A stretch of DNA of 64,000 bases from the NCBI GenBank assembly GCA_031213475.1, contig JARUPZ010000003.1:16734869-16798868 (forward strand), in the 5' to 3' direction. The position numbers and the translations under genes are program-made. Within the stretch, counting starts at the first letter, position 1. The number at the start of each line of letters is the position of its first letter. Positions 18,201-62,794 of the stretch are shown here, piece by piece. This DNA comes from Nereocystis luetkeana (lineage: Eukaryota; Sar; Phaeophyceae; Laminariales; Laminariaceae). Under the pieces are notes generated by a model. It worked only from the letters and a program-made list of their open reading frames with translations. It ran no database searches and was not told the origin of the DNA.

Positions 18201-21200
18201 ATGTATGTTCTTTCGAGGTTTTATAGGTGCAGCAAACGCAACTGTTTGCCTGGTATAGTCTTGGAGCCAACCAGGTACCGGGTACAATCGGATACCGGTG
18301 TTCCGCAACAAGGCGTATCGAAGCGAGAGCTGCCTCCCTGGGCGATGCATGATGTGCGCTGGACGTCTTAGCCATAATTTATGCATACCCTTCTAAAAAG
18401 TGCCACAAGCATGCCTCGGCATGCGATGGTTCGTCACATCTGAACTTGTCGAAGGTTTGACATCATCAAACCTTTCTTTGCAGCAGGAACGTTTGTTGGC
18501 GAAGCATGTTTTTCCGACACGTATTCCCGTGGGAATCTGTCGTCACGAAGGTCTCTCTTCCTGTGCAACCTTTCGCCTGGCTCAGGTAGCATCCAACAGA
18601 CTAGGGTACGGGTTGAAATAACATATTGAAGTGGTAGCTATAGACCGTTGAAGCGCCATCCCCGGCTTCCTCTTTCTGTGCTGCCGCAAAAGGTGTATTG
18701 TGTTGGCGAGGGGGTATCAACAGTATCGATTGAAGGGGGGACGTTCAGGGACAACACGGCGCTGGAATCAGGAGGCGTGATCGCATTTGGGGGAGCTTCT
18801 ACGCTGGTGACAATTACTGGAGGGGCGTTTTTAAACAACAACGCAACGTGAGCCCGACTTTTGGACGTATTGGTGGATCTGTTCCGTACCAGGGTGTGAA
18901 GTTTGGTTGGGCTTGAAACATGCAATTTGAAGCAGGCCGATCTGTATCCAGTACCTGGTAGGGGTTCATCGGCGCGCGATTAACGTCGATGTTTTATTCC
19001 ACTGTTCCGACTGTGTCATGCCGCCGTAATGTGTTGTCCATGCCTACCCCATTGAGGGGTATCGCTGGGCGAGCTCGTGAAGACTTCATGTAGAAGAGAT
19101 ACGCATCGAGAAGGGCCATATGTCGTGTGCACTGCATTGCCGCAGAATTGAAGTTGCTCGCTGTAGCGAGAAGGCAGTTGTCGCGAGCCCTATGTTGGTG
19201 GGAGCAAAGTCGCAGTTTTGTTTAGGTTCTCTTTGTCGAGGAGACGTTTTTCGAGAGTCGCGTGTTGGTGTCGGAGTTAAGTGACGGTGTTTTCGTTTGT
19301 GGGAGGCGGTTATCGGGAGTCGCGTGTTGATGGGAGCGAACGCGCAGCAGTTCGATCGCTCGCTTTGGCATTTAATAGAAGGAAGAAGTACGAACTTTGA
19401 GGGAGGGGAGTGCGTTGTGCGTGATACCCCTAACTCTAAGTATGCCACCACAATGGTTTGGTGGCTGACGTAGCGAGGCTGGTCTGTGAAGAGGTGAATG
19501 CTGATGGGGGCTGCTACTGTATATACGAAGCATTGCCCTACTACGGGTGCCAGCAACAATAGTGGTAGAGTGCCTCGCTTCACAGAAGAGAAGGGTGAAC
19601 ACAATCAATATATCTACAATACGTACTTTCAAAACAGCAGTCTGCTCGCTTTGGGACGGTGGGGACTAAGGCAATTTGAACTCTCTTTGTAGGTGGCCCA
19701 GGCATGGCATGCGGGTTGTGAGGGCGGACTAAGGCTTGAACGGCCTAGCGACAACGGCATGTCAATCGAGAGACGGTAGAGCGGCAGCAGGGTAGGTATG
19801 AGTAGGAGCAGCAGCAGCAAGCAGCAGCAGCTTAAAGAAAGAGAGTAACGCGGTAAAGGGGGTAGCAGCGACCATGAACGGCAACAGCGGACTAAGGCTT
19901 GAACGGCCCAGCGACAACGGCATGTCAATCGAGAGACGGTAGAGCGGCAGCAGGGTAGGTATGAGTAGGAGCCGCAGCAGCAAGCAGCAGTAGCTGAAAG
20001 AAAGAGAGTAACGCGGTAAAGGAGGTAGCAGCGACCATGAACGGCAACAGCAGGAAGAGCCACAGCGACAGCAGCACCGGCGGCAGCAGCGGCAACAGCA
20101 GCAAGTAGGGGCGACGGCAAAAGCAGAAGCACCGACACCCGCGGGATCAGAAGGAGTTGGGTATTCAGCATCACCCGCTGGCCTATTTTGTCATCTGACT
20201 TCGTCGGCTAGAGGATTCAACCATCCAAAGAAGGGTCGCGAGTGCGATTCTCGTCAAGTTCATACATATTTGTTACTCGCCTACCAAGTATTGCTAAGCG
20301 TGCGTGCTGTAGACAATATGAATGGTGCATTAATATTCAGTAAGTGTGCTCCTCGATACTGCTGTGGCCCTTGGCATAGGGAGGGCCCGGGGAATTGACG
20401 TTGTGAAGTCTGCGAGAATCGATGAACTCGAAGCGGACATGCATACATTATATATATATATATCATTGGCTATACAACACTACAGTAGTACCCACTTGCC
20501 TATTTATAGTGGTCGCGTGACTTAAGTAAGCCGGCGAGTAGTGCTGCATAGCCAACTATCAGTGGGTAGTGTTTGTTGTATAGTGAACGTTGTGCGTGGT
20601 ATCTGATCTCGAGATAGTCGGAGCTCACGTACTTGTTAACACTGACTTCGGAGCACACTTGAACCAGGCATAACATTTGATACTTCCCTATTAATAGCTC
20701 ACACGCTCGAAAATATCAATTCTGAAGTCCGTGAGAATCGAAAATCGTGACCGGATATTTAGCACTACCTACTAACCCTACTAAGTATATGAACATAAAC
20801 TATATACTCACGTGACTAATTAGGCCAGTGGGTAACGTGCTGTATACCTGGTACGCAACGAATGGGGTGTCGTGAAATCGAAACTCGCACACGCCATGCG
20901 CTGTTATGTCCAAGCCTGCGCGCTGGAGACATTGCAAAAGGCTTTAATACTGTGCTCCTGGATACTACTAACATGCTAATATTAAGTGACGGAGATCACT
21001 TTTAGAAGTCTGCGAGATTCGACGAACTCGAAAGCATATATACGTTGCTGGTTATACAGCACTCATGACTGCATACCTGACTTCATCGCAGTTTTCAGTA
21101 CAGTGCCCTCGACAAGTGCGTTTATTGTGCTGTGATAAGTGTATAACTTAATTAGGTAGAGGTGCCTAGCCAACAGAAGCAAACCACATCGCTTTGATGA

Positions 21201-24200: not shown

Positions 24201-27065
24201 GGTACATCATCTCGGCCTCGTGCGTTCTACCATCCGTGAACTTCTACCACAGTCTACTGGCTACGACGCTCGGGCCGTTTGTGGCGGCCGCTGGGCTGGT
24301 GTTAACGTACCGGGTAGCATACCGTAGGGCGACCATTGGGTCGGTCGGGATGATTGCCAGGAGGGATGCATGGTCAAGGCATGTTACGGCGGGGTTACTT
24401 CTAACGTTCGCGGTGAGAGTTCATGGTTCAGTTAGTAGCTTTTGGAAGCCTACGAGTCAGGCGAGAAGTCGTACACCATGTTCAAACCTTTTGAGATTAG
24501 AGCTAACCGTTGTAAAATGGGGTTCACCCGCGAGTACCGTCTCTCGTCGCGTAGTGTGTCTATAATAGTTTGGGAGGAATAGGCTGGGACCAGCCGGAGG
24601 CGAGCCTCGAGACTGTAGTAGCCACACAATATAAAAAAAGAAAGCAAATGACGTACCTGGTATATATTTATTCGTTAGTGTTGGGGAGACAATATCAATG
24701 GCCGCTTTTCAGCCGCCACATATGCAAAGCGAGATACGTGGAGGGCATGCTTGCACCTGACATATATAATCCTACTGGGTACTTTCGTGCAAGCACGCTG
24801 TTCTCGTCGGCTGGCGGCCGCCATCTACTACAGTACGTATGAGTCAGAAGGAAGATGTTTCCAAACTTTGCGATAACCGCCCCGTATCAAAATACTGGTG
24901 TGCCAACTGCAGGTCTTCACTTCTGCCTCTTCTACAGTGTTCAAGACGTTTGCTTGCGACGGTGGGGTTGTGGATGGCCACAGCTACCTCAGGGCAGACT
25001 ACAGTCTCTCGTGCAATTCAAGAACGCATCGGATATTCAAAATATACGCTGGGCTCATGATCGTGGTCAGTAGAACGTTTTGCTTACTGTGTCACCGTGA
25101 GCATAGTAAGCTGTGTTGCTACTGAATGGATAAAAGTGTCAATCCTTGCACCACGGGGGGGGTGTATGTTTGCACGAAACTGGATGCGTTTAGGTAACGC
25201 AGCATGGCCCGCCTTCACTTGTGTCAGAAGGGCTGAACTATCCCAACACGTTTGCTGCCGCTGTAAAGGTGTACCCGATCGGCATCCCCGTCCTGTACTC
25301 CTTCCTTTTGTGGAAATACCGAGAGTTGCTCAACCCTCGCGTCTACTGTGCCGGCACATCCAAGAGCGCTGGCGCCGATGCAGACGACACGGGAGCTGGC
25401 TTTGTTGGGACAGCCGATGCCCCCTCTGCGATACTGCTGACCGCGTCAAATGGCCAGACCAAGGCCTATTGGTCCCCTCAGGAGTTGAAAGAGCTGGATG
25501 AACGAGTGCAGGCACGGGCGGAGCATCCGGACCTGGTCCCTTTCATGTTTCTATGGAAAGATTTCGGTGAGGGTATAGGGCTATGAAGGTCAACCTGTGC
25601 CTGGTACCTGATGTGTGCTTGGGAAACAAACAATTGCTTTGCCATACCTTCAAAAGCAATATTGGGCAAGTCCGGCGTGGCTCGATTTGTCTCACAAGCA
25701 CTGGCTGTTGAAAGCGGGAGCATATTCGCACTCCGTAAAATTGCTGATATCACACCGGCTGTTGGTAACGGAAATGAGAGTGAATAGATAATCGGTCCTC
25801 CTATATGATGTTTCATCAACCCTGCGTGTGCAGCCTCTTCTGCCGGGTTGGCATGAATGCCTTGAAATTAAACAATTACATTGTCACGGCCTATGCGTCC
25901 CCCAGGGCCCGACTTGTACTACTACGAGGTGGTCGAGTGTGGCCGGAGGATACTGCTGACGGAAGTGCTTATTTTTATCGCGCCGCAGACCTCAATACAA
26001 GCGGCAATAGCTTGTATCTTCGCATTCGTGAGTCTGCTGGGGTTCGAACTTATGCGACCCCACGCGGACCCTGCCGATTCGTGGCTCTACCGCCTGGTGA
26101 GTTGTCGTAATGAGTGTACCCACCTACAGGGTGCCGGATTTCGGGGTGTGCGTCCATTGTTCCCCCGGAACGTTTCGTTGGATGCTGGGTCATTGGCGTC
26201 TTGCAGCGTAAGCATCCGTGTGACAAGAAAAAAAGGAAGTTGGGGTTCCGGCTCATTTTGAGGGCATGGTGCAGGGGGTCAAGGCTTGGGAAGTCACCAA
26301 GAAATACCGAAACGGAACAGTGGCAGAAGAACACATTGCCCCGCGTCCTTCATGCAAGGCCCCAACGTACCATACAAGTATGATATCTGGTTTAGATCAA
26401 AGTCATGAATTTGAAGGAGTGCTGAGAAGGGTAGAAGGTTTGCGCCAGCGGGGCACAAATACAGCACAAGATGCAGAGATACCGAGGTGGTAGGATGGTT
26501 TGGGTGCAACTAGCATGATCTCGAGAAGTGTCCGTTCGTGCAGAGGTTTTTCACCAGTTGCAGATTATGCGCGTTGACAAGGTCAGGGTGCAATTAAACA
26601 ATGTCACAAGGGCTAAATAACCTGACGTTGCCCGGACGGTTGATATTTGGGGCATTAAGAAGGTACCCCCAACGTACAGTATAGCGCTCCACGATGTGAA
26701 AAGGGCGGAGGAAGTGCGTTCGGTCACCCTAGAAGACGTTTATACGCAGCTCGTCAGCGGCCGTGGGGCACCGCTGACATGATGCGAAGAAGGAACACAA
26801 ACTGCTCATTCAACCCCCCCCCTTCCTGTACCACATGAATGGTTTATCCAACCATGCGCAGGGGTGCGTGATGATATTTCTGAGCTATTTCCTGGCGCTG
26901 CTCATCAAGACGGACGCCACGGGAGCGGACAGCAGATCCGCTCTTGGGGGCGCTTTGGTTGTCGTAAACGTGTTGCTGATTCTCGCCGTCCTGTGGACCG
27001 CGTTGTGCGCCATTGGACAGATGGTTGACGACTCACACGACAAAGACATCACCCCTGCCCACTGA
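2579..27065 (+). CDS. Pmp-like beta-helix membrane protein, 10 exons
   Basis: Predicted large surface protein. I joined exons 2579-3646, 17084-17246, 17895-18052, 18693-18847, 21713-23013, 23397-24412, 24913-25065, 25269-25566, 25906-26096 and 26862-27065. Every intron is GT-AG and every junction keeps the phase, giving 4707 nt, exactly 1569 codons with the stop. Residues 1-39 look like a signal peptide (core LLPVLLLHVLL). Residues ~120-650 carry repeated GGA/GGAV and F-x-x-N-x-A motifs of chlamydial-type polymorphic membrane protein repeats (a beta-helix). Cys-rich modules follow (~690-720 and ~870-970), then a membrane domain with several hydrophobic spans and a short acidic tail. The start is the Met conserved in the paralogue at 56061; a Met 45 codons upstream lacks that support. 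Role unknown; adhesion or sensing is a guess. The link across the 13.4-kb first intron is phase-compatible but is the weakest join; exons could be missing there. Confidence 0.75.
4311..4701 (+). mobile_element. MITE-like element, copy A (391 bp, no 7-bp insert)
   Basis: One of four copies of a short element with ~27-bp terminal inverted repeats (CAGACAAAWCGGAAAAATGG at one end, its complement at the other). The left end is slightly mutated here. Copies are almost identical, so movement was recent. An open frame at 4327-4647 (106 codons) crosses most of the element and is also open in copy B. No transposase is visible, and I could not identify a clear target-site duplication. Confidence 0.8.
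5678..6012 (-). mobile_element. tRNA-derived SINE, copy 1
   Basis: Read on the minus strand it has a tRNA-like head with an A box (TGGTTGAAGTGGTTA) and a B box close to GGTTCGAGCCC (one base changed), a body shared with four other copies, and an A-rich tail (the T-rich run at 5650-5674). It lies at the right end of the left duplication block, matching SINE copy 3. Confidence 0.85.
6041..6601. other. No gene seen
   Basis: AT-rich intron sequence with only short unrelated open frames. Confidence 0.5.
6602..7460 (-). pseudogene. Tyrosine recombinase remnant
   Basis: Pieces in three minus-strand frames line up with a tyrosine recombinase. A segment LGLAVSYFRLCRGSGLW corresponds to the helix before the first catalytic Arg. 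ALITVRWSTPLGW-type residues and VLRFMVDGIGREPMQSR lead to the place of the H-x-x-R box, which here reads C-T-L-E. After a frameshift the end reads GRWKSRVFTTYVKEA, with the Tyr expected to attack DNA, then a stop at 6602. Loss of the His and Arg of the box and two frameshifts show it is dead. The domain call is from motif recognition and could be tested by a profile search. Confidence 0.6.
7461..8050 (-). other. Interior of DIRS-like relic, not resolved
   Basis: The stretch lies between the RNase H-like and recombinase remnants. I see only short broken frames. It probably carried the linker region of the element. Confidence 0.35.
8050..8770 (-). pseudogene. RNase H-like region of DIRS-like relic
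   Basis: A frame at 8545-8745 encodes LWNLTYVVRAGRYFVWRLL. It continues past a stop into KRPAKRHYLSDASCEAVGGG, whose DAS fits the first catalytic Asp of an RNase H fold, and on to NLLELL...MVVSAWVMLELVG. At least three in-frame stops interrupt it. Confidence 0.6.
8770..9830 (-). pseudogene. Reverse transcriptase remnant (YVDD)
   Basis: The minus-strand frame 8770-9018 starts in the polymerase active-site motif YVDDGLLIRVHHSDDD. It is preceded, in shifted frames, by DRWEERTPTPIPSYANVRAH, by KADMADASRNLRVEPDQAHN (the finger/palm region) and by IRRYFGDMKWFGAVDELVRI near 9790. At least three frameshifts and two stops separate these pieces. The YxDD pair itself is intact. Confidence 0.7.
9900..10500 (-). 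pseudogene. Gag-like region with coding minisatellite
   Basis: Overlapping minus-strand frames (9901-10122 and 9977-10498) encode a charged, probably helical stretch (MVQQWHAEKEKLGNNDLDAR) and a low-complexity region built on three ~84-bp repeats (10245-10490). No known domain was recognised. Position upstream of the reverse transcriptase suggests part of a gag protein. Confidence 0.4.
10245..10490. repeat. ~84-bp tandem repeat, three units
   Basis: Three diverged units each contain a GGTATCGACAC-like start (or CGCCGATACTG, CTCGGTACTG), then a TGGGGTA/GGGGGTAAT core and a GCCCTTTGCTC/TCCCTCTGCTC end. The length is a multiple of three, so the surrounding frame is kept. Confidence 0.6.
10647..11102 (-). 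pseudogene. Gag-like ORF 1 of DIRS-like relic
   Basis: A 151-codon minus-strand frame begins MATNEAGDGPGPRGQRRIV, with a charged middle (SDRDAAIELLSDRDLWSAIM). A second frame (10499-10765, 88 codons) overlaps its end and probably continues it after a frameshift. No domain is recognised. Placing it in the element rests on strand, spacing and order only. Confidence 0.4.
11103..12235. other. No gene seen
   Basis: Intron 1 sequence, AT-rich beyond 11300. Only short open frames, no recognised repeat or RNA. Confidence 0.45.
12236..12529 (+). other. Unassigned 97-codon open frame
   Basis: The frame starts MDEFTEGLAGGIQAIISMIL and ends in a basic stretch. The composition looks protein-like (alternating hydrophobic and charged residues), but I do not recognise it and no splice or start context supports it. 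It lies in the sense direction inside intron 1 and is more likely an element remnant than an exon. Confidence 0.2.
12530..13749. other. No gene; tRNA-like fragment near 12690-12755
   Basis: On the minus strand, 12755 to 12690 starts like a tRNA (TAGCTCGATGGTATAAC, an A-box-like sequence) and has a weak B-box-like GGGCTCAATTC downstream. No cloverleaf could be folded by eye. The rest shows only unremarkable open frames. Confidence 0.25.
13750..14190. repeat. ~213-bp diverged tandem repeat, two units
   Basis: About 13750-13965 and 13966-14190 share the order: a TACTTGA... start, TGGCC(C)AA...TTTGTTTGACG, CCTAC.TTTGCCCCGTCAGG, an ATAATAGT...GGGATGTC segment and GCCG end. Identity is moderate, so this is an old duplication. 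Confidence 0.6.
14191..14870. other. No gene seen
   Basis: Intron 1 sequence; open frames on both strands are short and unrecognised. Confidence 0.4.
14880..14975 (-). other. tRNA-like fragment (B box, T arm)
   Basis: On the minus strand the sequence GTGGGTTCGGGTCCCAC (14915-14931) forms a perfect 5-bp T arm with a 7-base loop and matches a Pol III B box. No convincing acceptor stem or anticodon arm was found. It is probably a tRNA pseudogene or a SINE head rather than a working tRNA. Confidence 0.35.
15070..15520. repeat. CTG-rich tract with ~88-bp tandem duplication
   Basis: A (CTG)n run with interruptions lies at about 15150-15205 and another CTG-rich stretch at 15415-15510. Between them an 88-bp unit starting GATATACGTAGTATTCTGCC is repeated at 15241 and 15329. 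The poly-Leu, poly-Cys and poly-Ser frames here are products of the repeat, not genes. Confidence 0.75.
15521..17083. other. No gene; one GC hairpin
   Basis: The end of intron 1. A short hairpin built on CCCCCCTGGGGA and TCCCTGGGGGG lies at 16231-16262, and a G13 run at about 16625. Nothing else stands out. Confidence 0.4.
17084..17246 (+). CDS. Exon 2: beta-helix repeats
   Basis: Acceptor TTGTACAG, donor GTAAGC. Encodes repeat units with NNWATDNGGCLYS and LDNEAFNGGC. It leaves one base of a split Tyr codon that is completed by exon 3. Confidence 0.75.
17895..18052 (+). CDS. Exon 3: beta-helix repeats
   Basis: Acceptor ATAATCAG, donor GTGGGT. Encodes GGIFTCRSGSSGGFLYAG and EGNVAGKRGGA, two further repeat units. 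It ends on a codon boundary right after GGA, as exon 1 does. Confidence 0.75.
18693..18847 (+). CDS. Exon 4: beta-helix repeats
   Basis: A pyrimidine-rich tract precedes the acceptor GCAAAAG; the donor is GTGAGC. Encodes GGTFRDNTALESGGVIAFG and GGAFLNNNAT. Two leftover bases are completed by the G that opens exon 5. Confidence 0.75.
19165..19350. repeat. Short degenerate tandem repeat in intron 4
   Basis: Three units of about 60-70 bp share TCG(A/G)GAGTCGCGTGTTGRTG followed by a GGAGCRAA-like segment (positions about 19181, 19252 and 19313). Confidence 0.5.
19724..20050. repeat. 163-bp tandem duplication in intron 4
   Basis: Two nearly identical units start GCGGACTAAGGCTTGAACGG at 19724 and 19887. 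Each contains a CAGCAGCAG run. The high identity indicates a recent event. Confidence 0.85.
20270..21070. repeat. Diverged ~0.35-kb repeat in intron 4
   Basis: Blocks at about 20285-20560 and 20905-21065 share CTGCGCGCTG/GTGCGTGCTG, TGTGCTCCTSGATACT, AAGTCTGCGAGA and GATGAACTCGAA in the same order, with a partial third copy near 20715. Confidence 0.5.
21713..23013 (+). CDS. Exon 5: end of beta-helix and Cys-rich region
   Basis: Acceptor TTCCACAG, donor GTGAGT. It begins in more repeat units (EGVAIKGHYAGEQGGGIYA), then a degenerating helix. A small EGF-like Cys cluster (CSFPNICGAGICVNS...CEC) and a second Cys-rich stretch (CPAFEY...CEQC...YCDSPG...GYWRS...CKDGYTGPY) follow. Confidence 0.85.
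23397..24412 (+). CDS. Exon 6: Cys motif and first membrane spans
   Basis: Acceptor TCTGCCAG, donor GTGAGA. Starts with CSVCTKGYARSLSNTCHSCNG. A long hydrophobic helix follows (GLLIAACAFFAIMVLLMLVF), then a basic, disordered cytoplasmic-type segment. The conserved-looking block KIKILVGVWQILAVFSSITG and further hydrophobic segments close the exon. Confidence 0.85.
24913..25065 (+). CDS. Exon 7: membrane domain
   Basis: Acceptor CAACTGCAG, donor GTCAGT. Encodes SSTVFKTFACDGG through ADYSLSC to a hydrophobic AGLMIV, joining in frame to VYPIGIPVLYSFLL of exon 8. Confidence 0.75.
25269..25566 (+). CDS. Exon 8: membrane domain and acidic loop
   Basis: Acceptor CTGTAAAG, donor GTGAGG. Begins with the span VYPIGIPVLYSFLLWKYREL, followed by an Ala/Asp-rich loop and FMFLWKDF. 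The last base is completed by GG from exon 9 to give Gly. Confidence 0.8.
25906..26096 (+). CDS. Exon 9: membrane domain
   Basis: Acceptor TCCCCCAG, donor GTGAGT. Encodes DLYYYEVVECGRRILLTEVL and a long hydrophobic stretch ending at SWLYRL. Confidence 0.8.
26862..27065 (+). CDS. Exon 10: last membrane spans and stop
   Basis: Acceptor CATGCGCAG. Encodes GCVMIFLSYFLALLIK, another span (VVNVLLILAVLWTALCAIG) and the tail MVDDSHDKDITPAH before TGA. No good donor is needed, so this is taken as the terminal exon. Confidence 0.75.
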   Translation, partial: GCVMIFLSYFLALLIKTDATGADSRSALGGALVVVNVLLILAVLWTALCAIGQMVDDSHDKDITPAH

Positions 27066-33960: not shown

Positions 33961-35550
33961 CCATGCAGCATGCATAATACCTTTGTTGTGGCGCTCAAAT
34001 CGCGAAGAAGGACTCTCCCGCACAAATATCGAGAACTGCCGGCGACAAAAAGGTTTGAAAGCACCCCACACGTGACACACGGCACACACCGCATGTATAC
34101 GCGTGACACACTGAGCACAGCAGTGCAGTGGTGGGGTAATACTCACACAATAAAAAAAGATGCACCGAAGAAGGGGCTGGAACTCTTGATCACACTCGGC
34201 TGATCCACGGAAACATCACTACAGCAGCAGCGTTGTGCCTATGGCAACATGCTAGTACCACACAACCGCAGTAACCCCGAGCTCTACGGATCGCAGGGCC
34301 CGATTAAAAAACATCTACAACAAAGTAGGAATCCACAGCTATACAGCGCGGGCAAACTACCTCACGCGCGTGATGTTGCTTCCTGCTCTTCTGGCGGGCG
34401 ACAGGCGTGCAGAGCATTTTTGCCAGCTGGTTGTAGCGCGCATCCTGCACTGCTCGTTTGCTGTTGGTGGTCGATGGTGTCTGGGCTACTCCCACAATAC
34501 GTCGAAGAAACAACGCATCTCCAGGGGACCTTATGGGGGGGAGATATGAAATCGGCTTTCTTCATCTGTTTCAAGTGTCACATTTCGAGCACACGTTCAA
34601 CAGCATCGAACGTATATTTAGTACCTGGTAGGTGCGCATTTATGTTCGGATCAATGAGGTCGGTTCGAGTCCGGCCAGGCCCTTCTTTGTCAGGGTAGTC
34701 CTCGGTATTGTCACGTGAGTCGGTGAGAGAGACAACGAGGTCAGGGTTTCACGAACTTCGAATTGTTAAAGGGCATTGAGAAATTATTATGTGTGTTGAA
34801 GGGTAACGGATGGCCATGCCTCCGAAGGGGCTCCGACTGATTATTCCTTAAAAGGTTAGCCGCTGATTCTGTAACAGACGGGCGACGTTTTGTTTTTCGG
34901 GGTTAGCAGCGAAAATTCTGCCTTACGTCGGTGGCTTTACCTAGGTGCCTGGTAAATATGTACTATGTAAAGCGCACCAGTCACGGTAACGTTTTGAAGG
35001 TACAGGTATATCATATTGCCGGTTCGAGTCCGCCAGGGAAATATTAAAACAGGGTACTCATCGGAAACGGATTTTCAGAAGGTAAGGTAGACCACGAGGC
35101 CTACTTGTGGCGAGCTGTCGTTTTGCCTTGGAAGGGCAGCGGTAAATTACACTAGGCCCGTAAGCATTATTGGTACGACTAAAACATGAGCTGTATCAGC
35201 TGAATAGATATATTCTTACACAATTCAGAAAACGGCTGCAGCTAACCAAGAGTCTGAAGCTTTCTAGACATTTTTTCCCAATTTGGGGTGCACTAACACA
35301 TAATCACACACTATCTCGCACGGGAACGTCATTTAATTTCCATGCCCGTCCTTTCTGTTTCAGTGCGTTCGCTTGCTAGTGACAAATGACCACCACGAAA
35401 CCAGTAAACGTTTGGTTGGAGCCGTTTTTTTATAGGCAATATAACCGAGGTGCTATTAATACAGCCCCCGGCGCGTGAAATAAACAAACTCCCGAGTTTG
35501 CAATTGTTTATGCTTTGGGCTGGCAACTTGTAGTTCTCGAACGCAGCTCG
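33961..35550. other. No gene; two B-box-like sequences
   Basis: GGTCGGTTCGAGTCCGGCC at 34658-34676 forms a 6-bp T arm, and a related CCGGTTCGAGTCCGCC lies near 35012. Neither is part of a complete cloverleaf. They may be SINE or tRNA fragments. Confidence 0.35.
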
Positions 35551-35926: not shown

Positions 35927-37361
35927 TTTGTGTGTCTCGCGCATTTCGACCCATTCCAACCACTGCAGCACCCCAAACAGTCGAGGTGTAGGCTTCTGTT
36001 GATAAATGGCTGATAGGTTTTCAGGAGATACCCCTAAGCTGCCGTGGATGAAACAGTATGCTCACACACCCGCTGTCTGCTAGGGCACGGTCAAGCCTAA
36101 GGTCCAAACGCGACGTGGAAACACTGCAGTGGTGCGAAATATCGACGGCTGATAGATGCCATCCCCGAATTGGTGGTCAGTATCGTCTGGTTCTCGCTCT
36201 GTGTTACAGGCAGATAAGGTATTCCAGGGTGACAGCGTTTAGGATCAATGTCGTCATCACCCTGCAGGCAAGTCTTGTAAACATAGAATAGATCGCGGAC
36301 GACAAGGGGACACAAACTGTTTCCTAGGGGTACAAGCACGGAACTCGGCGCGTCTCCGTATATATATATATAATATATACCTGGTACAAGTTGTTCCTTC
36401 GGAGTGGCATGAGCGTAGCGTGTAAGAAGACTCTTCTTGCCGAAATACGTATTTGGTGGGTTGGTTTGAACTATTCCACCAATTGCAGTTGTATGTGCTG
36501 CAGTTGGGGCAATAGCTCAAATGTACCTGTAACAACCAAATATGTATTAGTATAAGGAAAATAGTAGTGGAACATGCAGATGAAGGTGACGCAAGAGAGC
36601 AGTTCTAATGACCGAAAAAGCAGGTAGTCATTATATATCACAGCTGTTATGATATATGAAGGCGACAGGAGCGTGATACCTGGTATGCAACTTCGACAGT
36701 AAGCACTTGCTCGACGAATCGTAGCGCCAGTAGACACATGTCCTGCGACACCTAACGGCTCGATAACGAACGAAACCTTTGGCGGACGCCCAAACCAACT
36801 ACGACAGACATTCCTCAAGGAAAAGCGTCTTCAACGAAGCGTAGCAGTGGGCCCGGGGCCGGCGTGAAACGCAAAGAAGTAGAAGCGACGGGAGTAAGTA
36901 GTAGCAAAAAATCCCTCGCAAACGCGAATGTCGTTAATATCAACGCAATCAACACCCTGGCAAACACCCAAGCAAGGTAGATTGAAATATACATGATATT
37001 TCGTGGTCCACAGCCCCCAAAGGGGATGCAAAAAAGGCAGCTAGACCTTGGCCCTCGCCTAGGCACTGGCGTGATGAAGGCGATGCAAAACCTGACACTC
37101 TTCGTGGGTGAAGAAACCACCACTGAAACAAAATGAACCAGTCCGCTCCCCACGCTTGAACTCAAAGTACCCGCTGGCAGACTTGCAAGTACACGCACAA
37201 CGGATGTTTGCTGAAAGTATTGAAATATTATAGACGCAGGCGCACGCTGCAACGAGACGCCCGCGAACACCTCTATATTCAGACCCCAGTCGCAGACCAA
37301 AGGCAGATCAACGGTGTATGATGCTCTACCGGAAGATCATGATAGACACGAGAAGAGACTC
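35927..37361. other. No recognised gene; one 161-codon open frame
   Basis: A minus frame at 36815-37300 encodes a hydrophobic protein (for example IYLAWVFARVLIALILTTFA). No start, splice or homology evidence supports it. The rest is AT-rich with a TATATA run at 36360-36378. Confidence 0.3.
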
Positions 37362-37630: not shown

Positions 37631-37869
37631 AACAGAGATTATAGACAACAAACCGACAGCACAAAAGAGACATGGAAGACGTGCTTGAAGGAAGGCTCAT
37701 AACCTCGAGGGTCATGACCTGAAGGAATAATGCATGTTGAGGCTCTGTCTTCTATGAGAAGAGATGCAGAGGCGGCACCGAAGTGTCTGTGAAGATCACT
37801 TGTGATGAAGAAAGAAGATGGTTTGAAATTGGCGCTTAATTGGCCATTATAGAAGGAATCTTGATCTAA

Positions 37870-38260
37870 CAGACAAAACGGAAAAATGGGAACGAAACAA
37901 AAAATGAGAACGGACGGTTGTTTTTAGAAAGAAAACCAATTGTGTACAACTCCAAGAAAAAAAGTTGACAGTCCTGTGGGGCTGTACAGCAGCCTTCGAA
38001 TGAGCTGTCGCTCAGGCTGGAAGTCCTCGGCATCGCCGCGGTAGCCAGCACCTAGAGAAAGCACAATAGAGCCAGCGTATATCGCTTTTTGCGCCCACCC
38101 GAAGGCACGAGATGGAGCATGACCGTTCTGACGAGCTCCTTTCACAGGGCTGGCCAAGGGGTTTCGCAGGATCATTTTGGTTCTCTGATACACCACATGG
38201 TTCTGGAGATACGGCTTGGTTCTCATTTTAGGCTTCGTTCCCATTTTTCCGATTTGTCTG
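37870..38260 (-). mobile_element. MITE-like element, copy B (391 bp, no 7-bp insert)
   Basis: Same element as copy A in the opposite orientation, with both terminal inverted repeats well preserved. The ~106-codon frame (37924-38244) is open, as in copy A. The TA at 38189-38190 is the empty form of the site filled in copies C and D. Confidence 0.85.
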
Positions 38261-38774
38261 AGATTCTCAGAGATCAAGAGGAGAAGAGGAAAGGAGAAGA
38301 ATGGAAAGGAAATGGAAGAGAGGAAATGGAAGAAGAGAGTGGAATAAGAGGAGTGAGCAAGGTGGGGCATGCCATCACCTGATCACGAGACAATGCCCAT
38401 GCTACGGGCAGGTTTATTCTACAGCAGCCCGTCAAGGTTCCGTGAACCGTTCTTAGGAATGTCCCTGCAACGTTCTATGTAGCGTACTCGTAACGTTCTA
38501 TGGAACGTTACCTGCTACCTATTGTGGTAGACTAGCTACCCTGCGTTACGATCAGTATGATAGGGATAAGTGGAATACAGTGCGTCGGCAAGAAAGAACA
38601 AACTCAAGTCTCGCCGCATATCGTATTTCTCCGCATCTATCATAAGATACTCTTAGTAAGCTCGTGTGAAGTGACTGCACATCACAATAGATATGGATGT
38701 CAACGTCCATATGCTGACAGTGCTGAATACAAATATTTGAGGTGGTATGAGTTTAGTTGACGAAGCCTTTAAAA
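38261..38774. other. No gene; purine-rich tract
   Basis: A GA-rich run (about 38268-38345) follows the MITE-like element. A small group of AACGTTCTATG motifs lies at 38460-38505. Confidence 0.4.
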
Positions 38775-39665: not shown

Positions 39666-40309
39666 ACACCTTTAGAAACAGTTTAGAAAATACGCGTTGG
39701 CGCGAGCTGTAGAGGCAGAAAGCACGAAAGGTAAATAGGAATGGGATGCGATGAATTATGTTGGCAAACCCTCACGTCTTTTTTCGCGGCAGAGACGGCG
39801 ACGGCAGAGTCGGCAGCAGCATAAAACATGGAAACGTGTTAGTGTGCTCAACTCCCTGTCTGTTATCGTGTCGGAACAACAACAGCAGCAGCGGGGGTAG
39901 ACAACTGTCTCGGGTGTGGAAAGAAACGCAGACTGTAAACAACAACGGCAACTGTTCGGAAAAAAGTTGGTTGTAGTGTGCAAAACAACAACAACGGCAG
40001 CAGCAGCGCATATACAAATGGCAGTACGCGTACTATTCCCCTGTCTCGGTGTGAGCTCGTATAAACACAAAAGCCATATACCTGGCACCTGGTGTGTATT
40101 TGTGTCTTCTATTTAGTGCTGAAGGTCGACAACATGCGGGAACAGCAACAACCACGCGAACAACAACATAGACAACGGCTGCAGCAGCGGCGGCGGCAGA
40201 CACTGACTCAAAGCTGCGTACAACAGCAACAACGCGAACGACGCCTGCGTACACAACAAAATCAGCATCAGGGACGATAGGCGCGCGCAGTTACAGCAGC
40301 AGGAAAAAA

Positions 40310-40707: not shown

Positions 40708-40795
40708 TTAAAAGGAGAAGCAGCAGTAGCAGCATCAACAATGGGCTGCGCCACCAAGTCGTGTTCTCGCGTGCGGGAACACAGCAACGACGACC

Positions 40796-42260: not shown

Positions 42261-42719
42261 GACCCGCGTCGTAGTCCTGTTGAAACTACCAGGTATTCCG
42301 GAACAAAATAGAAAAAAAATATGTCTACTATCGTATGTATGCCGTCTTATAGCCGGTCTCTTCGGGCCAAAGCAGCTGAGATCAACGGCAGTCCTGTTGA
42401 ATCTGTTCCCGAAAAGTCCCTCCACTCGCGAATAGTACAAAGCTCTCGCGAGCCAGGGTTGACAATCTTGCGAAAGGCCACAAAAACGCCCCCACGGCGA
42501 CCGACCAGAGAAAACAAATTTATAGTTTTGTTTATATATATATATATGTACCAGGTATATATATATCTTACTAGGCTTCGCAAAGCAAAGGTTGTAGATA
42601 GTGATTTGTGTTGAATGTATGACATCTTCATGAACAATTATACACCTATTAGACCGGTGTTCAAAATTTCGCTGAGCGCTCTTGCCCCCATTGGTGGGGC
42701 CCCTAACTTTCCCAACCTC
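42261..42719. other. No gene seen
   Basis: AT-rich with a TATATA tract around 42530-42570, interrupted by one TACCAGGTA. Confidence 0.4.
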
Positions 42720-46165: not shown

Positions 46166-46819
46166 ACGACGTGAGGCGTGTGTTTTTTACTTATCTTTGG
46201 GTTTTTCCTGGCCTTGGTCCGTTCTTCACAGGGTAAACTTGTTTTTTTCTGGAATTCTTGACCAATGTGCAATGAGAAGGAAGAAACAGCAGTAATACAA
46301 GGAAAAAATCATGTACCAGGTAGGTGCGTAGTAATTCAAGAAGGGCGAACTGAGCAAACGGAATACTCCGAAAATACTAAATGAACTGCTGTACCCGGCA
46401 CGACCAATAAAAGTATAAAGGAATACCAGATAGCAACACAAATCCGAACCAACAGGGGTACAAAAATACCCCGAACCTGCGACAAAATGGATACTCGTGT
46501 GTACATACAGGCCAAACCAAAAATGTCTGCCAAAACAAACCAACTAAACCAACCAGCCGAAGCAAACAGAGGCAAACGACGACAGGAATCGACGCAGAAG
46601 GCAGAAGCCGACAGGGGCTATGAATGCAGCTGGAAAGTGGAAACCATCCTCCTCCGTCTGTCCCCTCACTTTTCATCCATTTTTCGGGGAATAGCAGCGA
46701 CCACATCACAACTACTGACTGCAACCCTACGACCCTACCCCCAGGGAAACTATGAAACCACTGAAGAAAAATGGACGCCGACAAAGGAAAACGAGGTCGT
46801 CACGAAAACACGACCAACC
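46166..46819. other. No gene seen
   Basis: Spacer between LINE copies L1 and L2; open frames of about 100 codons with no recognisable motif. Confidence 0.4.
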
Positions 46820-48544: not shown

Positions 48545-48862
48545 TTCCATTGATTGTGGGTTAGAGTTCTTTTTCTCTTTCGATTTGTCTACCTTGTTTT
48601 TGTTTCCTCTTTGATTGTTTCTTTCCGTTTCACTATATCATAGATTACGTATGTCGTGTCTGTCGTATCTAGTACTGGTATGATTACATGGCTTTGCATT
48701 GCCCACTGCAGTGCACACTGCACACGTGGCAACGTAGTATCTCTGTGGCGTAGCTTTGTGACCACAGAACTTGTATCTCTTCTAGGATTGAAGAATCGGC
48801 ACGGACACTGGTTGTGCTGGATGTCGACGGGTAGAAAGAACGGTTTAATGTGAAGAACACAC
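48545..48862 (+). mobile_element. 5'-truncated LINE copy L3 (3' end only)
   Basis: Only the last ~300 bp of the LINE, ending GGTTTAATGTGAAGAACACA. It is head to head with copy L2. Confidence 0.75.
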
Positions 48863-49312: not shown

Positions 49313-49754
49313 TATAATATATATATGGGGGTTAGGGTGAATATATTGTCAGACTGGCCGCCGTAAACGGCGGAGAAAAAAATGGCGGCCTTTTATTTGA
49401 CGTTCTAAAACTAGCGTTCGATAGGGGCGAGAAAAAGGTGTCCGGACCAAACCACGGGCCTTGAAAAGGATAGAAGGCGTGTGAGTGTATGTATGTTCCC
49501 ATGTGTCATATTATTATATAAAAGCGTTCAGGCAAATATATGTTGAAAAAAACGGCTCCGTAGGATCAAGATCGGGTTCTCTATTGAACGCCGAAAAAAA
49601 TATTAATACTCAAACAGAAAAATTCATTTCAGATATGACCTTTAGAACGGCGTACAGCAGTGCGCACTTTAACCGCATAAAAGTCGAAAGTCCACGTCAA
49701 TCGTTAGACACAAATAAATCCTGAAATTCGGCGCTCACTACCTGGTATTCTGTG
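49313..49754. other. No gene seen
   Basis: A TA/CA-rich start, then a small hairpin (GGCCGCCGTAAACGGCGG, about 49358). A TACCTGGTA lies at the right edge (49739). Confidence 0.4.
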
Positions 49755-50345: not shown

Positions 50346-51300
50346 ACGACACACCACATCCTGAGAGGTCGGAATTATTGGAAAAGCGTTGCAAAATAAA
50401 TGTGAAGGTGTTACCTACTGAGCTATAATAGGGGTAAAAGATCGATCGATTACCCAGCCCGAGGTAATCCTCATACCAAAAACCGTTGCGATCACATGAT
50501 ACTACTAATACCAGGTATGTATAATGACAAAAAGGAGGGGAAGAAATATCATTATTTTCATTTTTTTACTTGGTTCTTGTAACCCCCTCCCCCCTCTGTT
50601 CTAACCAAAAACTAACATGTCACGGTTCACATATTTGTTTTCGCGGTGCAGTGATGGTACACGTAATTTCCCGTAATCAGATTGAGCCGTCCGTGTTTTG
50701 TGTTTGTGTGAGCCCGATCCACGTGTCCCCCCCTGGTATAGGGGAAGCCCCAACACGCAGCACAAACAGAGCTAACCTGAAGATGCAAACTCAAGACTTC
50801 ACCAAGCGGTTGTTTATCGCCTGGGACCAGGATTGAGTAGAGTCGGATGGATACTTGGTGGGGAGCGGGGATGAGGGTAGCGATGGGGGCCTCTCTGATG
50901 ATGATGAGGGCTTATTTTTTTCTTTTTTTTCTTGTTGTGTTCTTGTGCCCTCGGACGCAAAACAAGCAACAAGTCGGCCACGTGCTTCGTACCTGGTATA
51001 TCTTATCAACAAAGTAGCACACTTATTAACACTCCAAGTACTCAAATTTTGAGCATGCAAACGTGAAAATAGAGAAAACAGCAGTACACTTACTTGTGAG
51101 ACCAAACAAAGTGTTCAAACAGAGTACAACAGAGAACGAAGAGCAACGTTCAATCGAGTCAACTCGAAATTCAAATTCTGCGACGACACGCAGACTTGGT
51201 GCACAGAGTATATATATGTCCACAATGAGTACACGGCTCTCTCGTTTCTTGACTTTTTTTTTGTGTGAAAACTTGTTAGGCGCTTCCAAAAGCCTTTTAA
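50346..51300. other. No gene seen
   Basis: Insert within the right duplication block without recognised coding content. Two TACCWGGTA sites are present (50509 and 50990). Confidence 0.4.
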
Positions 51301-51698
51301 CAGACAAATCGGAAAAATGGGAACGAAGCCTAAAATGAGAACCAAGCCGTATCTCCAGAACCATGTGGTGTACCTGGTATCAGAGAACCAAAATGATCCT
51401 GCGAAACCCCTTGGCCAGCCCTGTGAGAGGAGCTCGTCAGAACGGTCATGCTCCATCTCGTGCCTTCGGGTGGGCGCAAAAAGCGATATACGCTGGCTAT
51501 ATTGTGATTTCTCTAGATGCTGGCTACCGCGGCGATGCCGAGGACTTCCAGCCTGAGCGACAGCTCATTCGAAGGCTGCTGTACAGCCCCACAGGACTGT
51601 CAACTTTTTTTCTTGGACTTGTACACAATTGGTTTGCTTTCTAAAAAAAACCGTCCGTTCCCATTTTTTGTTTCGTTCCCATTTTTCCGTTTTGTCTG
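51301..51698 (+). mobile_element. MITE-like element, copy D (398 bp, with 7-bp insert)
   Basis: Both ends are intact. TACCTGGTA at 51371-51379 replaces the TA seen at 4381-4382 in copy A, adding exactly 7 bp and breaking the frame. Copy C has the insert at the same spot, so C and D share one insertion event. Confidence 0.9.
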
Positions 51699-53039
51699 TT
51701 TTTTCCATACATGCTGTGGAACCCGGGGAAGCTTACGTTTGGTCCCCGGCTGTTTGCCGTAATCGCCGTCCAGAATTAAAATTGCTGATTTGCCGCAATT
51801 CACGTCCGTATTTGTTTCAGTCTCCCGTAACTGCGACATTCACTTTTTTTTGGGGGGGTGCCCTTGTGTCCATTGATAACAACAATATGTATGTCTGTGA
51901 AAAGGCCATATTTTTATGAGTATAAAGACCTATTATTTTATGCCAATGGTACAGCGAAGTTCAAAAGTTTTTTCTTTCAAATACATGGCTTTAAAAAACA
52001 GCCGAAAAAATTCTCGTACCGGCGCTGTGGGGAAAAAGAGAAGAAAGTTTTTTTGTTTTGTTTTTTCCCCCCCAACGGCTGCAGGCGGCGCAATGTGTTT
52101 TTTCTGCTACGCGCGAACGGCCTATCATAAAATTTGGAAATTCAGTAAAAACGGGATATATACGAGACATATTATTACGCAACTTGCAAAGTTAGTTGAG
52201 TATCAACTATGTAATCAGTCGAATTGTAAAAATTATAAGTAGAGATCCCGATACCTCCGTTTTCACATTTCGTTTTTTTAAAGTCCAAATGGGTGCCAAA
52301 TAAACGAAATATGGCATACCCAGGGTCGTAGAGGAACATAGGAGGAGCTCGACGCGTTGGGATGAATTTCCGATAAAGTTTCTACGACCGGTTGGCAAGC
52401 GCACGATGGCCGAGGTAGTGCATGTGGCTGCCACGCGGCTTGTCTGCTGACGGCGCGAGCACCTATGGGTAGGGAATCACCATGGGGTGCGCTCGTAGGT
52501 AACCAGGGGATCAGGAAGTGGCTGTGGCGGTATATTTTTGGACATGAACCCCACTCATCATTCAAACGTCTGCCATCGAACAGCGATGGCCGATACACAA
52601 GTTCTAGAGCACTCCGTAGGGAGCGGGTTGGACCACGAGAACTGCCTGCTGTGGAGGGTGCCTTACGTGAGCGAGTTGTTTCTATCGACCGTCGCTGTCG
52701 AGCGCTATCGCCGGAAACCATGTGCTGTGGCGGTTGAGTTATTCCGAAAAATTGCACCGCGTAAATATTCGACTCGGCTTCTTATTTTTGTTTCTTTTTT
52801 TTTCGTTTTTTTTGCCCTCGGTAGGACTCAACCTGCTTTTTTTTGCGAAAAACGAAAGTATGTTCGTTTTATTTTGTTTTTTTCTGTTTATTTTGCCCTT
52901 GACAAGACCGGCCCTTAGGAACTTTTCTTTTTTTTTACGTGGCCCATAGGAAGAAGCGTGTTCTGAATAACTTTGGCGGGTATCTTTGAAATTCAAACTT
53001 TTTATTGAAACTTCGATGTACCATTGGCATAGATAGGTC
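51699..53039. other. No recognised gene
   Basis: Open frames at 52465-52737 and 52538-52918 look protein-like in part (for example SGLDHENCLLWRVPYVSELF), but no family is recognised. T-rich runs follow at 52790-52930. Confidence 0.3.
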
Positions 53040-53832: not shown

Positions 53833-54024
53833 CATTGAAAATGATATAATATACCTGGTACCAGGTATCTGTTAATATCAGATGTTCTGGACGCGACGAT
53901 GACGGTGGGTTATGGCGTCGTGTCCGTGTGACGAATAGTTTCAGGTGCGTGCGTGGAAATTCTTGGTTGCTGTACAAAGCTTTGTGGTACGGCAGCAAGT
54001 GGGATACGTCAACATTTTAATATG

Positions 54025-55275: not shown

Positions 55276-56060
55276 TCAATATCCCATATATATATAGTTA
55301 ATCGTTTGCGGGCGGTGCTCGCGATGTATCGATGACACGAAGTTACTCAATTCGTGGGAGACGTTTTAATATCTGCCCGCCTCCCTGTGTGCACCTCGTT
55401 GCAAAGAGAAGATATTCGGGTTCGGGCCCTCCCTGCCGAGAAATCAGCCACCACAACAGCACAGGAGCCGCGCGGTACGTGATGGACGCCATGGGCCTAA
55501 AGAGTTGCAAGGTTGGCGCTGATGAGGTGTTTAGGATGGCTACGATCCCTTTGGCCATAGCCGCATAGGCCAGTGTATTGTCCCGGACACTGCAACGAAC
55601 ATAGGTTTGTGATGACGTCTCCGTTCCATCGGTTCTTCGTGTAGGAGCTTGAGACAAAATCGAACTGAGCGTCAGCGCGGGGATTGGTGTTCCCGCTACT
55701 AGGTGGATGCACGGGCGTATGTTTTAGACCCATTGTCTGCCCTGTTCCCTGTTTGTATTCCCGCTAATATTTGTGCACTACGCACTACCCTGGTACGCAC
55801 TACCAGGTACACACTACACGTGGCAGATACGTTCTATGTGTCTACTGCTGCTGTAGATGGATAAAATGAAAAATTGGGGAAAAAACTTTCCGATAAGAAT
55901 GACCCTCTTGTATTTGTATGATACTTGCAGAAGAATTCGTACAGCTACCCGCATGCTTGTATGCCAGGTACAGCACTACAACCACTGTTGTTGTTGAAAA
56001 CAATGCTGCCTACGACCTCGCACTTCCCATCTCCAGACCGATTGGTGCGTCTCGTCCGAC

Positions 56061-57945: not shown

Positions 57946-58894
57946 GTCGGAATACGGTAGATTACTACCCGGTATTCCCTTTATTAAACATGTTTTACAC
58001 AAATTGTTGTATAAACCAGAATACTAATCTATTTCGAGTATTATAGATGACAGGATCTGAACAATTTCCTGAACCGGGCAGCGTTGTGCGTCGATGTGGT
58101 AGCGCAGCCAGTTACTACCTTGTACCTGGTAGGTTATTCCTCCCATTGATTGGCTTGTTTCGATACATTACTCACGCGAGAGTCACTCGCTAATTCGCCG
58201 CGGGTAACCGCTATCAGCCCACGGTCCCCGCCGGCCACCTTCTTACCCGCGTCGGGTAATAAGTCCGATTTTTAGGGGGTACCCTTTGGTGGCGTGTATC
58301 CGGCGGAGTGCAGCTCTATACTCTCCATCAATAATCTTATATGAGATCCGGGTTTTGGCCTTGTCCCACTGCGTACGGCACACGCGTAGCATGTTTGTTG
58401 CGAGAATAACTCAGCACTTATTTCCCTCGTGTCGAAACTCGTGACGAAACTGCTGTGCTTTACCCACGCTATAGTACCCGTAGGCCCTCTCGGCTGTTAG
58501 TTGATAGTCTTTCGAGAAACAAAATTACACGCATAGATAGGGAGAAGCAAAATCGGTGACATCAACGGTAAAAAGTGCCAATTATTAGTACGTGCCAGGT
58601 ATGGCGTTCTGCCCTGTATAGAATACCAGGTACGCGCGTAGGCGACAAGTTAATAACGGTGATAGTACCGTAAGAACAGCAGTGTATCCGGGTATTTTAA
58701 AAGTTTAATCAGTATATATAGAGCATGGCTCAGCTGAGAAGCTGAGAAAAAGTACGTACCTGGTATAGTATTCTTGTTAGTTGTAGCATGTAGTACGTCA
58801 TGTTAATATAGATAAATGTTATTATGGCTGTTTATTTCTCGCCTCTAGTACGGAGTATCGTGGTTGATATTGTTTTTTTTTTTTTTTTTTTTTT

Positions 58895-59202: not shown

Positions 59203-59239
59203 GGAAACAGTAAAGCAGCGGTGTTATGGTAGACATACC

Positions 59240-59565: not shown

Positions 59566-60999
59566 AAAAACAAATACTGGAGTAAAAAATAATAATCTCC
59601 TAGGATAGCGATCATCTATTCGCTGCTATCTATCTAGTGTACTACCTGGTACTACACTCCTCCATGTCACCCTCGTCTATTTATCTCGTCAACTCCTTCA
59701 ACACATCCTGTTCCTCCTTGCACATTTCACTTTCTCCTACTATTTGAGTGCTACTACTGCATCTATTGTGCATCTATTTCCTCCTCCTCCCGGCTACTAT
59801 TAAGATATTTCTTCTTTCTAACAGGTCGAGGTCACGTACGTACACAAAATCGCAGTTTATTTCAGCTTTTTCGCGAAGCCCATTGGGCCGTGCAAATACG
59901 ATTAATCATTTCATTCCTATCCCTTCGCTCTATCCCCCGTATATCTCGAAGTTTTTCTCCGATTTCACCTTGGTTCTTAGCGCTATGATTCTAATTCTGC
60001 CTTGTATGCCCCAAACTTCTTTGTGGACATCATCCCTTATTGGTTTCCCCTACTATATGTCCTTCCATACTTCCTCAACTACTATATCCCACCTTATTCC
60101 TACTAGCGCTTTTGTTACTTTCTCCCATACAACTCCATTAATTGGGGGGGGGGGCGTACACAATTTAGTTACGATACTACGTGACAAAAAAAAAATAAAA
60201 ACATGGGTTAAGCGCTTACCAGGTACGTATGTATACACGGGCATCACCCCCCCCCCCCCCCCGCCTTGTCCGAGACCGTCGTTCTCCTATCCGATACCCA
60301 TCCGCGGCTACGGTCATCCTGTCCGCCTGGCTGGGTGATAACAATGTCGCTCCCAGAGGATTGAACCGGACAAACGCATATAGGACTGGGCCGTAGGAAA
60401 GCAGAAGTGATAGCACCATACACTCGTTTTTGCTGGTCTCCAGTGTAACAATCGCGAGACATCTGCTAGTTTTCGAGTACATCAGAGTACACTCTACGGT
60501 AGTATGTAAAGAAATACTACTATTAATAGTAGCCCATCCTGTCCTTCCTCCCTACTCGAGTCAAGCGTGCAAGCTCTTGCCTACCTGGTGCAGTTCAGTT
60601 CATACCCACTCCCAAAGCAGTGTCAAAATCAAGAGAAAAAATACGTACGTACGCAAGACGTACGAGTTGTCCAGAATCTCCGCCGGAAAAGCCAAGCGCT
60701 TGTCATCAAGAAATCGCGCGTATAGTACGTATTTTTACATACATAATACCTGGTACCAGATACCGGGTACCTGGTACGTTCGATCCGTAAAAACAAATAC
60801 TCCGCACCAAGAAAAAAAAGAAAAATGAAAATATCGAAATTAGCTGAAATTGCACACTCACCTTCTACGTATTATGTTAATGTTACGCGAAGAGAGATGC
60901 TGCAATTCACAACTCGTCGTCTATTATTCGCCGTTCACCAATATCAACTTCAAAGTAATACCCAAATAGATGAAACTATTCACACCTCGGATGACCCTC
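59566..60999. other. No recognised gene
   Basis: A 196-codon plus frame (59748-60338) crosses a C17 run and is not supported. Four or more TACCWGGTA sites occur, including the stacked set at 60747-60776. Confidence 0.35.
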
Positions 61000-61085: not shown

Positions 61086-61099
61086 AAAGTAACTCTCGG

Positions 61100-61873: not shown

Positions 61874-62794
61874 AACCGTTCTTTCTACCCGTCGACATCC
61901 AGCACAACCAGTGTCCGTGCCGATTCTTCAATCCTAGAAGAGATACAAGTTCTGTGGTCACAACGCTACGCGACAGAGATACTACGTAGCCACGTACCAG
62001 GTATGTACGCAGTAAGCACTGCAGTGGGCAATGTAATGCCATGTCATCATACTAGATACGACAGGCACGACATACACAATCTATGAAATAAGGAAACGAA
62101 AAAAATCAATCAAAGAGAAAACAAAAACAATTTAGACAAATCGAAAGTGAAACAGAAAAAAAAAAAAAAAAACTAGGAGAAACGATCTGTCGTGCCCCCC
62201 CCCTCGCAGGCGAGGTGGCCAACACTTGAAAAAGAACGAGCTGGAAAAAAGGAAAAAAATACCAAACACACCACTGCATGTAAACAGAGTAAGATGAAGA
62301 ACCCAAGGACAAAAAAATATGAAAGGGAAAATAACAAAATAACAGAGGGAAATAACAGGCAGACCAAAGCCCAAAGCACCCTCCAGGTGGCGGCAGCAGT
62401 TTGTGGTACTATATAGTAGTATAGCCAGGTTCCCCCTGCTAATCCTTCTGGTACCTTGCTACCCAGACTGCCGTCTCCGCCCTGGGTTCATCAAGTATGT
62501 CCAGCCCCTTGGCGTCAGACAATACGAAACGAGCAGAGAGGGTTGGTCATCCAACCACGCCACACGGCTCCTTCAGTACGGCTTGTTAATCAGAAAAGGA
62601 AGAGAAAAAAAATATAATGAATATCACGGAGAGTCAGCGCAAGAAAGACACAAACAAAACAAAAAGAGAAGACAAGGGAAGACCACGTTCGAACCAGCTG
62701 CACCAGTTGGTGGCACTAGTAGTATGGTCATGGTCTACGGCTTAGTCGGCCTGGTGCCTTGCTACCCTGTCTGCCATCTCCTTCCTACTTGCGT

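Follow-up and report, generated by a model that had tools for sequence, protein, structure and literature searches.

A 7-bp palindromic insertion at TA dinucleotides in the kelp Nereocystis luetkeana, a probable transposon excision footprint

The TACCWGGTA motif in the window and in the genome

The window analysed in this work is a stretch of 64,000 nucleotides of Nereocystis luetkeana (GenBank assembly GCA_031213475.1, contig JARUPZ010000003.1, positions 16,734,869 to 16,798,868 of the forward strand), and it carries the palindromic 9-mer TACCWGGTA (W, A or T), here called a scar. It is present 26 times, against a mean of 0.35 and a maximum of 3 in shuffled sequences, which agrees with the first-pass annotation of this DNA, where at least 26 copies had been claimed against about 0.5 expected. 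The spread is uneven, with 0, 3, 8 and 15 copies in the successive 16-kb quarters; positions 1–16000 are free of the motif at a TA frequency similar to that found elsewhere, and the last 16 kb hold 15 copies. The window also carries four copies of a miniature inverted-repeat transposable element (MITE), copies of a long interspersed nuclear element (LINE), and a protein whose best named relatives, among the best 120 of 150 matches, are two Laminaria digitata proteins (75% and 71% identity), followed by one of Choristocarpus tenellus (30%).

The scars were located by motif count, with no strand assigned. Those of the form TACCTGGTA lie at 18952..18960, 20845..20853, 24654..24662, 34622..34630, 36378..36386, 49739..49747, 50990..50998, 58757..58765 and 59643..59651, and those of the form TACCAGGTA at 42287..42295, 42549..42557, 46314..46322, 50509..50517, 55801..55809, 58624..58632 and 60217..60225. 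Others are described below with the repeats that contain them. In addition, positions 60747..60776 (strand not assigned) hold four tandem 7-bp units with the centres CCTGG, CCAGA, CCGGG and CCTGG, which include two exact TACCWGGTA.

Across the assembly (465,085,209 bp, 1,987 contigs), TACCWGGTA occurs 182,395 times and its reversed pattern, used as a control, 1,744 times; the genome-wide frequency, proposed earlier as a check, is far from chance level. The form TACCSGGTA (S, C or G) occurs 10,882 times, with 1,899 for its reversed control, and a W centre is found in 182,395 of the 193,277 sites of any centre (about 94%). Twenty evenly spaced 10-kb stretches (L026–L045, 200 kb) presented 72 copies against 1.28 expected. 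A wider sample of 342,726 bp (the 343-kb sample) holds 162 scars, an occupancy of 0.9% of its TAs; some stretches (L022–L025 and L046–L048) were picked as scar-rich or through tandem matches, so densities are valid only from the evenly spaced or the genome-wide counts.

The enrichment depends on the flanking dinucleotides. Among 9-mers of the form NN-CCWGG-NN, TA/TA flanks are the most enriched (26 against 0.36 expected), followed by TA/CA (9 against 0.93), which are perhaps decayed scars, and every other pair of flanks reaches at most 5. CCWGG alone is mildly enriched (162 against 118 expected). Forms with one mismatch to TACCWGGTA are also in excess (116 against 55.5 expected), which suggests, as a rough estimate, that each site has diverged by about 7% from the time of scar formation; given this excess, the TACCSGGTA forms fit later substitution.

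Filled and empty copies of repeats

The comparison of repeat copies showed how the motif arises. In MITE copies A (4303..4712, + strand) and B (37859..38268, − strand) a bare TA is present at 4381-4382 and 38189-38190, respectively, whereas copies C (40302..40715, − strand) and D (51293..51706, + strand) are filled at the matching point, by TACCAGGTA at 40629..40637 and by TACCTGGTA at 51371..51379. The gain is exactly 7 bp with no other local difference, as first described. Copies C and D were counted once, as they have extra terminal bases in common and perhaps descend from a single event, and the family has no outgroup in the analysed sequence.

The scar TACCTGGTA at 39611..39619 is lacking both in the relative at 54220-54026 and in the opposite arm of its own element at 38863-38788 (71% identity), and the one at 36677..36685 (TACCTGGTA) is lacking in a repeat copy from the sampled genome. 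The TACCTGGTA scar at 58123..58131 corresponds to a 7-bp gap in the relative at 5393-5071, but this copy has GA at the position expected for TA. The LINE copy with TACCAGGTA at 61995..62003 is 11 bp longer than its four relatives, which lack the insert, corresponding to 7 bp and 4 further bp; TA is present at this position in only one of the four (53815-53539), the other three having GTGT. The claim of the first-pass annotation that the gain is always 7 bp does not hold, since comparison of LINE copies revealed a 6-bp variant insertion, TACTGGTA, with a 4-nt junction, at 48673..48680 (strand not assigned).

Two tandem units with one common TA (TACCTGGTACCAGGTA) are located at 53852..53867 (motif count and alignment; strand not assigned), and they had been paired with a single unit at 1644-1652, within a duplication. 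BLAST detected no similarity between the two places at E 1e-3, and the unit near 1644-1652, TACCTAGTA, is decayed; local alignment over about 50 bp, in which one unit faces two and one 7-bp and one 5-bp gap occur, nevertheless reached a score of 23, which none of 300 shuffles attained (maximum 13).

Considering all 7-bp gaps between repeat copies in the window and in L022–L048, TACCWGGTA was found in or beside the gap at 12 of 25 places; this count includes both MITE C and MITE D, an array unit in L025, six places in L046–L048 and one at window position 36679. When the stricter TA..TA form was demanded, L046–L048 were left out and neighbouring places were merged differently, the proportion was 3 of 12. 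The abundance of TACCWGGTA and the insertion that converts TA into TACCWGGTA are confirmed as real in this genome. As to direction, outgroup copies in the 39611 and 61995 families lack the insert, and from these alignments the empty TA state can be taken as the older one in both families, in agreement with insertion rather than with deletion of an ancestral motif.

Target preference, junctions and origin of the insertion

The sequences flanking the scars were compared in a logo of 105 distinct contexts from 294 kb, in which identical contexts were used once and sites adjoining another unit were excluded. The flanks are dyad-symmetric, with A and not T at −1 (p 5e-9), Y at −2, A at −3, A at −6 (p 1e-8) and A/T at −7 (p 2.5e-16). 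The 25 sites of the window, taken by themselves and at five positions, gave significance at −1 only (p 0.014). Cross-validation gave concordant results in the two directions: the logo of the sampled loci scored the 47 window flanks at 0.93 against a background of −0.81 (p 8e-12), and the window logo scored 239 flanks of the loci at 0.42 against −1.31 (p 1e-33). From −3 to +3 the flanks agree with the palindromic target site AYATATRT published for Tc1 (PMC9635669, in part), and the scar, inserted at a TA, is bordered by this dinucleotide on either side. Such a dyad preference is the trace expected of a transposase, and slippage, deletion or selection are not expected to yield it.

Rarer junctions share the flank preference of the main class. 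In the 343-kb sample, where 20 motifs were tried and p values are uncorrected, flank scores were raised for TACCAGTA/TACTGGTA (25 against 12 expected, p 1.9e-8), TACCGGTA (13 against 5.6, p 0.001), TACCAGGGTA (8 against 1, p 0.012) and TACCATGGTA (2 against 0.33, p 0.005), the junctions being CCAG, CCGG, CCAGGG and CCATGG. On the other hand, TACCTGTA/TACAGGTA presented neither excess (19 against 17 expected) nor flank preference (p 0.44) in this sample, and for this reason CCAGG, and not CCTGG, is taken as the end of the donor; decay by loss of single bases would produce the CCAG and CCTG kinds equally, and so does not explain the difference between them. All four raised junctions are among the products of 4- or 6-nt overhangs, CCAG and CCAGGG, in an annealing table that was drawn up post hoc. 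A slightly imprecise cleavage is known from ISY100, in which 13 of 16 cuts of the 5′ strand fell at the main site (PMC2170065, in part).

We propose that TACCWGGTA is probably the footprint of a cut-and-paste transposon that targets TA and whose excision produces 5-nt 3′ overhangs. The element would insert at TA, duplicating it, and on excision would leave the 3′ overhang 5′-CCAGG on each flank. The two overhangs could then pair, with four G:C base pairs enclosing a single A·A mismatch at the centre. The break would be repaired by end joining, and mismatch repair would give TACCAGGTA or TACCTGGTA, with a net gain of 7 bp. In the annealing table the CCAGG rule gives exactly TACC[A/T]GGTA and no other product, and an overlap in which A·A (or T·T) is mismatched can yield only W, which matches the W centre found genome-wide. 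The excess of scars over donors would be accounted for by a low-copy, often-excising element whose scars outlast its insertions. The first-pass annotation had named excision of a TA-targeting transposon as the nearest known process, and both this idea and the 7-bp insertion at TA are upheld.

That annotation had objected that footprints are normally more variable. The objection is weakened by Sleeping Beauty, whose canonical footprint is TAC[A/T]GTA, formed by two overhangs that are in part complementary to themselves (PMC3432063 and PMC4378557, in part), and minor variants also occur here. Both of these studies used primers matching the footprint and so give no measure of its variability; heterogeneity of Sleeping Beauty footprints is mentioned in a passage of PMC8151067. 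In that system a 3-nt overhang, CAG, remains on both flanks (PMC7827188, in part), and in the annealing table these overhangs pair with one mismatched centre. The likeness includes the TA target, its duplication, a palindromic insert and an A/T centre produced by a mismatched overhang join, and the W and S counts given above follow the same rule of an annealed overhang that varies only between A and T at its centre. The difference is one of length, CAG with a 5-bp gain there and CCAGG with a 7-bp gain here.

Several observations weigh against an excision origin. Footprints of Tc1/mariner elements are described as 2–4 nt long (PMC7913693, in part), and the main class is of 5 nt, its 4-nt variants being minor. 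The predicted product TACCCGGGTA was found 0 times against 0.44 expected in the 343-kb sample, and TACTAGTA 0 times against 0.55 in the window. Genome-wide, TACCTGTA also exceeds its reversed control (20,551 against 8,021, both strands), as does TACCAGTA (46,688 against 29,541, both strands). Reversed patterns are a poor control for words as short as 8-mers and do not separate CCAG from CCTG, so it is the flank test that decides for CCAGG over CCTGG. That test is imperfectly specific, since TACATA/TATGTA (−0.49, p 5e-7) and TATAATA/TATTATA (−0.41, p 3e-4) are also raised above the background of −0.86, although both remain below the CCAG junctions (+0.48); the score must partly track A/T-rich flanks, and our confidence in the excision footprint is lowered for this reason. 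Moreover, where the TA occupancy predicts about 1.4 TA-sharing pairs, nine were found in the 343-kb sample (two of these are copies of other pairs within the same repeats), an excess that requires re-use of the target.

The donor element was also not recognised. Searches for inverted repeats and for relaxed CCWGG ends, in the window and in the 343-kb sample with its 162 sites, provided no convincing TA-flanked element that begins with CCWGG, as would be the transposon with CCW...WGG ends suggested in the first-pass annotation. The 139 TACCWGG ends without a second TA in this sample have flanks at the background level (−0.82 against −0.86, p 0.39), and the scars scored +0.90, a value obtained on the model's own training sites; by arithmetic on these mean flank scores, donors would be at most about one-tenth as common as scars. 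The transposase domain DDE_3 (PF13358) had no matches among the 30 candidates scored, and DDE_1 (PF03184) had 28, none tied to CCWGG ends, of which eight were examined as loci; two 8-kb stretches around pogo-type genes contained no CCWGG-ended element. In this single assembly the empty and the scar states are both seen between repeat copies, but no copy with the element itself.

Four candidates for the donor were rejected. The 298-bp candidate at L039 4286-4585 begins with CCAGA; at L043 8090-8796 the likeness of the ends hardly extends past the scar; at L046 5156-5489 the scar belongs to a longer inverted repeat and is present in each of its arms; and the 30-base stretch at L051 1194-1223, which carries a TA-bordered CCWGG at either end, was not accepted. 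This last stretch has TACCAGG at one end and TACCTGG, on the other strand, at the other, adjoins the end of a pogo-type element and is possibly a relic or an odd scar. In the fold-back element at L046 5089-5559 the scar occupies mirror-image positions of the two arms, which suggests that the arms are kept alike.

The alternative that most deserves attention is one without a donor, in which CCWGG+TA would be inserted straight into TA sites by a transposase-like enzyme or as the outcome of an aborted strand transfer, in a self-propagating or enzyme-driven manner. The failure to recognise a donor in 343 kb with 162 sites, the high uniformity of the product and the tandem units at one TA all speak for it, but the junction variants fit end joining of 4–6-nt overhangs, classes of other lengths coexist in the genome, and we know of no enzyme that inserts such a short piece; on balance we regard it as unlikely. 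The still-spreading micro-insert of the first-pass annotation belongs here: the absence of a detected donor in 343 kb leaves it some probability, but the overhang rule suffices and such an insert is not needed.

The remaining explanations are much less probable. Minisatellite-like slippage of a 7-bp motif would account for the arrays of three to five units, but single units make up most sites, copies with a bare TA occur, the centre base varies within one array, and slippage could create neither the first unit nor the dyad target preference; it is a very improbable source of the scars. Hardly any better is the loss of an ancestral TACCWGGTA through 7-bp deletion between two TAs, which the flanking TA pair would permit and to which the MITE family, with no outgroup here, offers no obstacle; it is contradicted by the outgroup copies of the 39611 and 61995 families and would not be expected to produce a dyad preference beyond the motif. 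Least probable of all is a selected motif, such as a protein-binding or CCWGG methylation site. The scar contains CCWGG and is very frequent, but CCWGG by itself has only the mild enrichment given above and the strong one needs the TA flanks.

Several described systems resemble the proposed footprint in part. Tc1/mariner transposons (Tc1, Mos1, ISY100) share the TA target, the fit to AYATATRT and the 3′ overhangs on the flanks that are supposed here; they differ in their footprints of 2–4 nt, whereas here the footprint has 5 nt, the preference reaches −6/−7, and neither a transposase nor an element was recognised as their source. The 7-bp scar thus behaves as a product of Tc1/mariner excision, and membership of that superfamily is not claimed. 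Excision of plant Stowaway/mariner MITEs leaves a small duplication with terminal bases (PMC4561436, in part), a similar make-up, whereas here the scars are very numerous and no donor copies were recognised. As context for a kelp, Mariner-Tc1 elements of the brown alga Ectocarpus comprise 17 families and 11,912 copies (PMC12477816, in part), which shows a brown alga rich in TA-targeting elements and in their MITEs; the words footprint and excision are absent from the main text of that survey. The 9-mer itself is present in 109 papers of an open-licence library, of which the 20 listed do not deal with transposon footprints, judging by their titles and opening lines of abstracts; other listings from this library, obtained by searches not aimed at the motif, showed no description of it. 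What is unusual in the present case is its scale, together with the 5-nt stagger and a donor that was not found.

If the motifs are scars, the genome would preserve, in a record readable site by site, the traces of as many as about 180,000 earlier excisions, although the events would be fewer than that because scar-carrying repeats have multiplied. The 5-nt stagger would then lie outside the reported range, and the donor would be rare or extinct. From such a record one could determine the frequency with which cut-and-paste elements depart instead of remaining in place, and small palindromic indels in genomes of this kind would have to be interpreted differently. If there was never a donor, the scars would represent a new kind of mutation with more than 180,000 marks in one genome.

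Tandem arrays and other TA-flanked classes

Besides the TA-sharing pairs, eight pairs 7 bp apart were seen by eye among about 100 genome-wide places listed. The sample contains eight arrays of three to five 7-bp units (at most one mismatch per unit), two of which are copies of one repeat, and the units of an array differ in their centre base; because the centres differ, re-use of a favoured target fits the tandem units better than slippage. The pattern of two complete 9-mers in direct succession, each with its own TAs, had 282 matches in the genome, and the control had none. A search of sequence collections with the doubled 9-mer gave matches in 9 viral and 12 genome contig stretches; all contained two TACCWGGTA except one with three, so that at most one copy lay beyond the match itself. 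No viral contig related to the MITE 24-mer or to the beta-helix protein was found in these collections. One tandem double unit lies at 360-379 of a 3.7-kb contig (L012) with a longest open reading frame of 208 aa, filed under a Rickettsiales metagenome-assembled genome and possibly a eukaryotic contamination.

Comparison between copies in the sample revealed 109 indel places of 3–14 bp, 17 of them of TA..TA form. Apart from TACCWGGTA, empty and filled pairs showed the conversion of TA into TACGAGTA (window 41804), TATTAATA (39490), TATAATA (once) and TACATA (twice). Counts in 343 kb were 68 for TATTAATA (1.8 expected), 65 for TACGAGTA (12.6 expected) and 121 for TAC[A/T]GTA (58 expected), and none of the three has the flank preference of the CCWGG class. 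TATTAATA has a preference of its own, C at −1, A at −2 and T at −3, and is probably a second palindromic micro-insertion, of 6 bp, from another element; in the window it is present 13 times against 0.69 expected, at 39488, 57855, 57864 and 10 other places. The pair with TACGAGTA, at window positions 41802-41809, would fit a 4-nt footprint. Several TA elements thus seem to have left their scars in this genome.

Some elements with TA flanks were noted in this context. A 2.0-kb pogo-type (DDE_1) candidate element at L057 2167-4190, with 8-bp ends CAGTGGGG, is a possible source of the TAC[A/T]GTA scars; as a donor for the main class it was rejected, since these ends would fit TAC[A/T]GTA and not CCWGG. 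In the window, a TA-flanked element of 1.09 kb with inverted ends TGCCAATGGTAC and a longest open frame of 167 aa occupies 51939-53031. Finally, several copies of a TA-flanked MITE about 107 bp long were noted at sampled loci (L029 3568, L035 4779 and L042 2579, among others); its ends, TTACGGGGGACCATAGT, would fit the enriched TATWATA scars.

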